Source: Clostridiaceae bacterium HFYG-1003 (GTDB taxonomy: Bacteria > Bacillota > Clostridia > Clostridiales > Clostridiaceae). Taken from it: a DNA stretch of 64,000 bases. Position numbers and translations under genes: made by a program. Below, one piece after another: positions 59,601 through 61,565 of the stretch. Under the pieces are notes generated by a model. The model had not been told where the DNA came from, searched no databases, and saw only the letters and a list, made by a program, of their open reading frames with translations. The DNA is taken from positions 3,261,558-3,325,557 of the forward strand of contig CP102060.1 in the NCBI GenBank assembly GCA_024579835.1. The letters are read 5' to 3'. Within the stretch, counting starts at the first letter, position 1; the number at the start of each line of letters is the position of its first letter.

Positions 59601-59690
59601 GTCCTCCAGTGTCTTCAAGCGATTTCAGTTGTCATCAGTTGTCATCAGTTGTCATAAGGTGTCTTCAAGTGTCTTCAGGTGTCTTCAAGG
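59601..59690. repeat. 10-bp direct repeat, nine copies in exact phase
   Basis: Nine consecutive 10-bp units with consensus GTCWTCARKT (for example GTCATCAGTT twice at 59631-59650, GTCTTCAGGT at 59671). Every unit starts exactly 10 bp after the previous one. Confidence 0.85.
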
Positions 59691-59715: not shown

Positions 59716-59743
59716 TGAAAAAAAGCAGAGAAGCTCTCTGCTC
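59716..59743 (-). terminator. Minus-strand terminator
   Basis: Read on the minus strand: AGCAGAGA-GCT-TCTCTGCT followed by seven T. It would end transcripts coming from the selenoprotein gene. Confidence 0.75.
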
Positions 59744-59817
59744 GTTGATCAGATCCTGATCGTATTATAAGCTTGATTGGTTTGGCATCATCAGGCTCGG
59801 GGTTTGGAATCAGGCGG

Positions 59818-59955
59818 TCAGGGTATTACCTGTTCTTGCGCCAGGATGTTGAGCGGGAATCCTCTTTGCCGTAGGTCGGTAATCACATGGTGTTGATTTT
59901 TTAGTAGACTCGCTATCACATCTTTTTCTGTGATAACAATAGTCACGATTTCCAA
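59818..59955 (-). CDS. Doubtful small reading frame or gene remnant
   Basis: About 45 codons downstream of the peroxiredoxin-like gene in another frame, reading (from TTG or GTG) EIVTIVITEKDVIASLLKNQ and on to a TGA. The amino-acid pattern looks protein-like (amphipathic, helix-forming), but there is no ATG and no clear ribosome site. It could be a remnant of a larger gene. No family recognised. Confidence 0.2.
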   Translation of the reverse strand: MEIVTIVITEKDVIASLLKNQHHVITDLRQRGFPLNILAQEQVIP

Positions 59956-59969
59956 TTCACAGCGCACAC

Positions 59970-60434
59970 TTAAGTCAGCTGATCGATGAGGGCCAGAATT
60001 TCGGCGTTGTCCGGAATATCCTGCATGGAATGACCATAGTGGACAAAGCGCAGCTGGCCCTGTTTGTCGATGATCATCTGAGCTGGCATTCTGCCTAATT
60101 TGAATAAATTGACCTTTTGCCCGTACAGTTTCAGAACCTGCTGAGTGGGGTCGGGCAGGCCGACAAAGCCAAGCTGGTTCTTTTCAAAGTATTCCCGGAA
60201 TTTATCCTGTGATTCCGGCCCAATGGTAACAACAACGGTATCCCGTGAGGTAAACTGACCCAGATCTTGATGCAACTGCATCATATGCCGCTGGCAGAAC
60301 GGTCAGACAAACCCGCGGTTGAGTACGATCAGAACATTGTTTTTTCCCTGAAGCGCTGACAGTCTGAACAAATTTCCCTGATAGTCTGTCAGTTCAAAGT
60401 CCGGGGCGGGGCGGTTGATTTCAACACTCGCCAT
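59970..60434 (-). CDS. Peroxiredoxin-like selenoprotein with in-frame TGA (UxxC)
   Basis: 154 residues if the TGA at 60305-60303 is read as selenocysteine. AGGAGATG precedes the ATG at 60434. The frame runs APDFELTDYQGNLFRLSALQ, then LIVLNRGFV-U44-PF-C47-QRHMMQLHQDL, then a thioredoxin-fold core with MPAQMIIDKQGQLRFVHYG. Relatives in the AhpC/TSA-like (PRX-like) family have CPxC here, so Sec replaces the first redox Cys. A hairpin with an AGUU loop lies 20-35 nt after the TGA (SECIS-like). Ordinary annotation would call only the 104 residues after an internal ATG. Confidence 0.85.
60268..60283 (-). promoter_or_regulatory. Candidate bacterial SECIS hairpin
   Basis: On the minus strand TGATGC-AGTT-GCATCA, a perfect 6-bp stem with a 4-nt loop carrying G at its second position. 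The loop begins 26 nt after the TGA, within the distance expected for SelB-binding elements. Confidence 0.6.
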
Positions 60435-60710
60435 TTATTTCATCTCCTGTCTGGTTGGATTGTGACTGAACCAATCGCTGAAATAGGCAGCCGATTGATG
60501 GACCGATTGTTGGCAGCTCCTCAATTGCCTCTTCGGCCAAATCTTAGCTGTTTCCTCGGGTGCTTGTTCCGCAGATTTCTGGACTGCTCTTCGGTTGGTT
60601 CAGTCGACGGATTCATTAATTAATTGTATCATACAACGAATAAACCGCGAGCGGCAGCAGCCGGATTTCAAAAAATACCACGAAATGTCATGAACGGATC
60701 CAAGACTGGA

Positions 60711-61565
60711 CTAATTAGCCTCATCTCGGTCAGGCCGCCAGCTAAACCGGTAAATCATGGGATCCGGACAGGGAAGGTCGGGTGGTGAGAGCGTGATCGT
60801 TCCAGGCAGGCCGAGCTCAAGAGCCGAGCAATGGAAGTGGGCGGCGGCAATTCCCAGATCAACTTCCTGAATGTCATAAGGGAAAGCGGCGCTGTATCCG
60901 ACAGCTTTTGACTCATAGAAATGGAATGTAGTTTCATGGAGCAATACTCGCCAGGGCTGCTTATTGGAAGCGGATGGTCCCAAGCGAACCATCTCCAGGG
61001 GAACGGAATATGCTCCCGCTGCTTCTTTCGTCAGCGGTGTCTGGAAGTTGTCCTGAAAAAACAGCTGTTCCCAGGGTTTGCGCTGATCTGCCTGGATGAC
61101 TTTCCGCATCGCCCGTTCCTTCAGGTGTTTTTTCGCTGCGGCATACCCATAAGGGGTAATAATGGGAAAGGATTCTCCGGGGGCAATGGCCATGGCCTGA
61201 GCAAAGCCTTTTCGGTCAAACGTTCCGCCCAGCCAGCAGGTTCCAAGACCAAGATGAGTCAGGTAGAGAATCGCCAGTTCCATTTCATAGCCCAGAGCCA
61301 GCATGGCATGGGGCCCCTCGGTCAAAGTCGCTCCGAGATAATGCCGGGCTCCCTGGATCACTCCATAGGTACCCAGTTTTTCTCCCTCGGAGGAGGCGGT
61401 CAGATCCAGAAAGTGAAACTGAATGGGATGGTGGAAGGGATTGTCCAGGGATTGCACAAAGTCCCGGAGGGCATGGTGTTTCTCAGCCTCGACCACTTGG
61501 TCGGAATAGTTGCGGACACTGGTGCGCTGCCGGATCGCATCGATGGCGGGAAATGACGGATTCAT
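60711..61565 (-). CDS. Nitroreductase family protein (TM1586-type)
   Basis: 284 residues, an FMN-dependent nitroreductase-like fold arranged as two half-domains. AIRQRTSVRNYSDQVV near the N-terminus is the FMN-binding RxSxRxY-type motif, LGLGTCWLGGTFDR follows, and the second half has VRLGPSASNKQPWRVLL. This matches the putative TM nitroreductase (PF14512) family. The substrate is unknown. AGGAGAGA precedes the ATG. It is a separate unit from the selenoprotein gene (145-bp or larger gap). Confidence 0.83.
   Translation of the reverse strand: MNPSFPAIDAIRQRTSVRNYSDQVVEAEKHHALRDFVQSLDNPFHHPIQFHFLDLTASSEGEKLGTYGVIQGARHYLGATLTEGPHAMLALGYEMELAILYLTHLGLGTCWLGGTFDRKGFAQAMAIAPGESFPIITPYGYAAAKKHLKERAMRKVIQADQRKPWEQLFFQDNFQTPLTKEAAGAYSVPLEMVRLGPSASNKQPWRVLLHETTFHFYESKAVGYSAAFPYDIQEVDLGIAAAHFHCSALELGLPGTITLSPPDLPCPDPMIYRFSWRPDRDEAN

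Follow-up and report, generated by a model that had tools for sequence, protein, structure and literature searches.

Our analysis of the window, by which we mean the whole stretch of 64,000 nucleotides from Clostridiaceae bacterium HFYG-1003, revealed a gene on the minus strand that is read through one in-frame UGA and very probably encodes a selenoprotein. All features of the locus are listed in Table 1. An earlier note on this DNA had proposed that a seemingly truncated protein of 104 residues continues upstream in the same frame, past one TGA, to an ATG with an AGGAG site. We could confirm this: the frame that starts at 60434 comprises 43 codons including the ATG, the TGA, 110 further codons and a terminal TAA (59972-59970), which gives a gene of 154 codons with the AGGAG 9 nt upstream, and another in-frame TAA lies directly 5′ of the ATG. 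A mechanical listing of open reading frames without read-through returned the 104-aa ORF only.

Table 1. Features at the probable selenoprotein locus (positions within the window)
Feature	Position	Strand	Basis and remarks
Selenoprotein gene, AhpC/TSA (thioredoxin) fold	59970..60434	minus	154 residues, Sec at 44; read-through ORF, Pfam, AlphaFold, selection in relatives
UGA codon 44, probable Sec	60303..60305	minus	UGA in 20/20 and 60/62 relatives, the remaining 2 with Cys
TGC codon 47, Cys of the UxxC motif	60294..60296	minus	invariant in alignment A1 (23 rows)
AGGAG ribosome-binding site	60444..60448	minus	9 nt before the ATG; read directly
bSECIS hairpin UGAUGC-AGUU-GCAUCA	60268..60283	minus	loop 25 nt past the UGA; folding and comparative tests
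Terminator-like hairpin with T-run, downstream of the selenoprotein gene	59723..59743	minus	consensus match only; 3 such sites, shuffle mean 1.0
TM1586-type nitroreductase, upstream of the selenoprotein gene, same strand	60711..61565	minus	link to the selenoprotein would be putative

The read-through product matched the Pfam domain AhpC-TSA (PF00578) over residues 6-130 (E 1.3e-21, 77.2 bits, cut-off 26). Since this match spans the UGA, both halves of the frame are parts of one domain. Alignment A1 (23 rows) has 30 invariant columns, located before as well as after the UGA, and the U and the C column of the active-site motif U44-P-F-C47 (RGFVUPFC) do not vary either.

The gene and its RNA signal recur across several phyla of bacteria. 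A scan of genome contigs found 20 relatives with 51-69% identity; its patterns had been back-translated with Cys at the Sec position and hence did not favour UGA. All 20 have TGA at codon 44, and they are labelled as Bacillota (including Fusibacter and Syntrophomonadaceae), Chloroflexi, Actinobacteria/Coriobacteriia and Spirochaetales. Searching the A1 profile against 398 Bacillota genomes gave 11 matches in 11 genomes (E <= 1e-25, own genome included), each with TGA at the site, and against 301 Chloroflexota genomes 50 matches in 38 genomes (E <= 1e-20), with TGA in 43 and Cys in seven. A protein search of plasmids yielded 25 records. Among the distinct relatives at a tblastn E <= 1e-12, 60 out of 62 encode TGA, and the other two have TGC (L096) and TGT (L072, Haloarcula). 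Three duplicates (L024, L026 and L028, of L062, L066 and L073) were removed from this set, and it leaves out the rows with E > 1e-12, namely ResA- or Bcp-like sequences with Cys or another residue at the site, together with one TGA sequence, L055. The frame of one relative (L037) runs off the contig end. The gene is patchily distributed, being found in three of 35 genomes of the window's family and in 11 of 398 of the phylum sample. Of 58 related genomes, 37 gave a match of some kind at E <= 0.001, mostly to Bcp- or ResA-like proteins with ~24-33% identity; a close match was found only in the own genome, G002 and G024, with one TGA in each. The earlier assumption of a family-wide Cys at residue 44 has to be corrected, as the close relatives that we found have UGA and Cys is confined to those further away.

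One alternative is that the gene is a pseudogene, broken by a nonsense mutation at codon 44, or that the UGA is a sequencing error, with translation limited to the downstream 104-aa ORF. This would suit the ORF listing without read-through, and single copies elsewhere do look broken: among the 60 UGA copies, three carry further breaks (L070 with a TAG, L091 with a TAA and L038 with an early end). However, the same UGA is kept in relatives from Bacillota, Chloroflexota, Actinomycetota and Spirochaetota, and nine of 12 chosen pairs, those with unsaturated dS, gave a dN/dS of about 0.1-0.3 for the part before the UGA and of 0.04-0.16 for the part after it. Judged by these ratios, purifying selection acts on both sides of the UGA in the relatives, and the RNA hairpin described below is co-evolving. 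We therefore regard a broken gene as extremely improbable, and the alignment of homologues at residue 44 (20/20 and 60/62 with UGA, 3/60 with further breaks) bears out the reading of a selenoprotein.

The genome, which consists of one 3.43-Mb contig, encodes the machinery for selenocysteine. We looked for selA, selB, selD and tRNA-Sec, and all four are present: selA (619.3 bits), selB (371 bits) and selD (361.9 bits) are clustered in ~6.4 kb (3038288-3044691), and tRNA-Sec lies at 3059377 (68.1 bits; ARAGORN also calls a tRNA-SeC). The selD gene has an in-frame UGA of its own in CGG-U-DSKIGAG, with a hairpin whose loop (AGGU) lies 17 nt past that UGA. Matches to selB were also found in 29 of 32 genomes that carry the gene (E <= 1e-60), or about 27 of 30 when G353/G458 and G343/G460, which have identical selB coordinates, are each taken as the one assembly they look like. 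Two of the three carriers without a selB match have selA, and the third, the 1.8-Mb MAG G467, has neither. This co-occurrence is weak evidence, because selB is common in the background (266 of 398 sampled genomes of the phylum).

Read-through as such would suit any suppressor, and it could be asked whether UGA is reassigned or suppressed here and read as an amino acid other than Sec. UGA looks not reassigned, since mechanical calling gave 44 ORFs with 200 aa or more in the window and 14 of them have it as their stop. Also speaking against a different amino acid are the genes for the Sec machinery just described, a hairpin that matches the geometry of a bacterial SECIS element (bSECIS), and the Cys at the site in relatives without UGA. 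We consider this alternative very improbable, and selenocysteine remains the preferred reading of codon 44.

The hairpin begins 20 nt past the TGA, in agreement with the 20-35 nt given for it in the earlier note. In the published model a bSECIS has a loop of 3-9 nt, a stem of 4-16 bp, a G in the first two loop positions and a spacing of 16-37 nt, with an energy at or below -7.5 kcal/mol, according to the passages concerned in PMC13188914. With a loop of four nucleotides (AGUU), 6 bp and a spacing of 25 nt, the window hairpin suits this geometry; its energy is borderline, with -7.3 kcal/mol for the hairpin alone (centroid), marginally above the published value, and -12.3 for a 48-nt stretch. 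When the 48-nt stretch was compared with shuffled sequences, 102 of 200 shuffles folded at least as well (z 0.06). As folding energy gave no signal against shuffles, comparative tests were used, and the significance of the hairpin rests on comparison. An Rfam search of 59800-60700 gave three chance matches, all far below gathering scores.

In alignment A2, which contains 47 UGA sequences (45 distinct), 98.9% of hairpin cells are paired and both sides have changed in four of the six pairs. Covariation was 0.374, against 0.207 (sd 0.020) in shuffled alignments and at most 0.116 when the hairpin was slid along the alignment. Synonymous codons within the hairpin are fixed. All 45 of the 45 Sec rows that have QL at +9/+10 use TTG for the Leu at +10, compared with 80 of 551 for the remaining Leu codons in the genes of this group; Gln at +9 is CAG in 45 of 45 (elsewhere 130 of 241); and Ala at +8 is GCG in 27 of 28 (elsewhere 57 of 361), the single exception being a GCA that faces TGC. 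The two Cys rows have CAA with CTT or CTC at the hairpin codons. We further counted hairpins with a stem of at least 6 bp, a G in the first two loop bases and a position 16-37 nt past the UGA, and compared the counts with 200 synonymous randomisations; L070 was excluded from this test and from the tree. Such hairpins occur in 62 of 73 Sec genes (randomised mean 6.2, maximum 14) and in one of ten Cys relatives. With stems of at least 5 bp the count rises to 70 of 73 Sec genes (randomised mean 12.8) and four of ten Cys relatives (mean 1.7). By these comparisons the hairpin is clearly a bSECIS: its stem covaries and its loop is AGUU.

The position of the loop motif falls into two registers: 59 genes have it 25 nt past the UGA, and in 14 the distance is 16 nt. 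These 14 genes are exactly one Chloroflexota clade (100/100 in the tree), and all have a 6-bp stem. As the clade aligns around the UGA without indel against the other members, the hairpin appears to have been shifted three codons nearer to the UGA by substitution, which offers a test of how much spacing SelB recognition tolerates. In the main register (60 of 74 UGA sites) each base of codon +8 is paired with one of codon +11, counting G-U as a pair, at 54 of 60 sites, and the remaining six have a stem of 5-7 bp with a five-base loop. The main alternation is between UGAUGC/GCAUCA and UGGCGC/GCGCCA, by which the protein changes from MMQLHQ to MAQLRQ. It thus seems fairly probable to us that base pairing in the SECIS chooses the residues of the helix after UxxC, Met going with His and Ala with Arg. 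If this is true, the family would be a natural experiment on how a SECIS in a coding region constrains a protein and moves within it.

The sequences show the gene, its conserved UGA, the genes of the Sec machinery and a hairpin that is conserved too. From these we infer that Sec is inserted at codon 44, and we are highly confident that this is a functional selenoprotein gene in which the UGA is decoded via the AGUU hairpin. SelB with Sec-tRNA-Sec would bind the AGUU-loop hairpin 25 nt past the UGA, and decoding of codon 44 as Sec would give a small, probably cytosolic protein of about 17 kDa with a thioredoxin fold and U44-P-F-C47. Going by the UxxC motif and the fold, U44 might attack an oxidised substrate (disulfide or peroxide), C47 would resolve the U44 intermediate as a selenenylsulfide, and a thioredoxin-type reductase would regenerate the selenoprotein.

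What the protein does can be approached through its fold. AlphaFold, run on A1 with Cys for Sec, gave a model with a mean pLDDT of 89.4 in which residue 44 lies just before a helix (45-56). The nearest solved folds are the Bcp/PrxQ and AhpE peroxiredoxins, which superpose with a Z of about 21 and an rmsd of 1.5-2.1 A across 140-146 residues. These share the fold with the window protein but only 21-24% identity, and UxxC replaces their TxxC. ResA-type folds follow with Z 19.5-19.6 (4nmu 19.6). The redox pair of ResA sits at the same place in the profile alignment; ResA differs in about 20-23% identity and in having Cys where the window protein has Sec, and the window gene is without the N-terminal anchor extension.

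The top fold matches and the Pfam domain, together with a peroxiredoxin-like protein as the top solved sequence match, would also suit another function: instead of a disulfide oxidoreductase, the protein would be a true peroxiredoxin-type peroxidase whose peroxidatic residue is U44 or C47. On the other side, the canonical peroxiredoxin site PxxxTxxC (or TxxU) is absent from RGFVUPFC. In the profile alignment to a Bcp-type protein, U44 lines up with the conserved Thr, and C47 takes the place of the peroxidatic Cys. Moreover, the thiol-disulfide oxidoreductases of the ResA type match nearly equally well. A counterpart of the catalytic Arg of peroxiredoxins is possible: the Arg of the Bcp-type match falls close to P117, and R115 does not vary in A1. 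The conserved RMPAQ is presumably the cis-Pro loop, by likeness to thioredoxins, and together with UxxC it argues for thioredoxin-like chemistry. Judging from its active-site motif the window protein is not a canonical peroxiredoxin, and we regard a peroxidase of that type as possible but rather unlikely. The term peroxiredoxin-like, which the earlier note had used, thus holds for the AhpC/TSA fold and does not hold for the active site, which is thioredoxin-like (UxxC, not PxxxTxxC). The protein is best read as a selenoprotein with a thioredoxin-like UxxC site, of the already described kind called Prx-like thiol:disulfide oxidoreductase.

Prx-like UxxC/UxxU thiol:disulfide oxidoreductase selenoproteins with PF00578 are a published kind, as described in passages of PMC13188914, PMC1088965, PMC1794560 and PMC2398784. 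The window protein shares with them the AhpC/TSA domain and a single Sec in UxxC, and may be of one subfamily with their published representative, WP_010940744.1. For most of the Prx-like groups in the literature, Cys homologues have been counted (225 Sec and 2,740 Cys for Prx-like 1, PMC2398784), whereas the close relatives of the window protein that we found all have UGA. Methods that rely on Cys/UGA pairs might miss the subfamily, since close Cys relatives were not found here. The relevant listing in PMC1794560 includes a 'distant Prx-like' selenoprotein of Syntrophomonas wolfei, which may belong to the window's subfamily, and Syntrophomonadaceae MAGs are among the relatives we found. Among the papers listed in our literature searches, none describes the subfamily as such. 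When the window protein was compared with the NCBIfam models, none reached its cut-off. The best match, shared by all 23 A1 members, was to NF040769 (SelL-related redox protein); it differs in that the window protein scores 71.1 bits against a cut-off of 120, with profile positions 2-99 of 173 aligned. Our analysis adds a well-supported selenoprotein subfamily for which no dedicated family model was found and which gene calling splits in two. The Prx-like UxxC kind itself is already known; what is most novel about this member is the SECIS, which is shifted in one clade and fairly probably dictates residues.

The effect of gene calling can be seen in Thermomicrobium roseum, where L071 (1471-1599 on NC_011961.1) is annotated as a 42-residue 'hypothetical protein', WP_012643006.1, that stops at the UGA. 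Going by its sequence, this protein is the N-terminal stub of a family member. The annotation stems from the incomplete gene table of PLSDB, and this was the sole annotated record of a UGA copy that we inspected.

The genomic neighbourhood was considered as a clue to the substrate. A nitroreductase is found near the selenoprotein gene at three loci (the window, L041 and L042), and an alpha/beta hydrolase-like gene lies beside it at 14 (L035, L071, L075, L076, L078, L079, L085, L087, L089, L093 and L097-L100), identified by Pfam for L035 and L079 and by annotation for L071. Neither the hydrolase nor the nitroreductase names a substrate. Just past the terminator-like hairpin there is a tandem array of a 10-base unit in 6.3 copies (59624-59687). 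When the window was scanned for other frames that have redox-like motifs and run through a UGA, many were listed.

Several copies in other genomes deserve separate mention. The divergent copy L070 (G295:C62:3461-3862) has the UGA at the site but is interrupted a second time by an in-frame TAG at position +12, and is perhaps decayed. In L091 a TAA follows 60 codons past the UGA, and L038 stops after 82 codons past it; each might be a decayed copy or an assembly error. L055 (G014:C1:5768088-5768393, minus strand), from another genome of the window's family, is a different Prx-like frame with TGA at FYRGAW-U-PYC and is perhaps a SelL-related selenoprotein. Because of long branches among the Cys rows in the tree, we claim no direction for changes between Sec and Cys. 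Finally, a Chloroflexota subfamily with the motif RE-x-x-U/C-x-x-C comprises Cys forms (L103-L106, L108) and Sec forms (L112, L113, L114, L116, L117, L119, L121). The Cys forms are without the hairpin codons, and the Sec forms carry an AGUU-type hairpin past the UGA.
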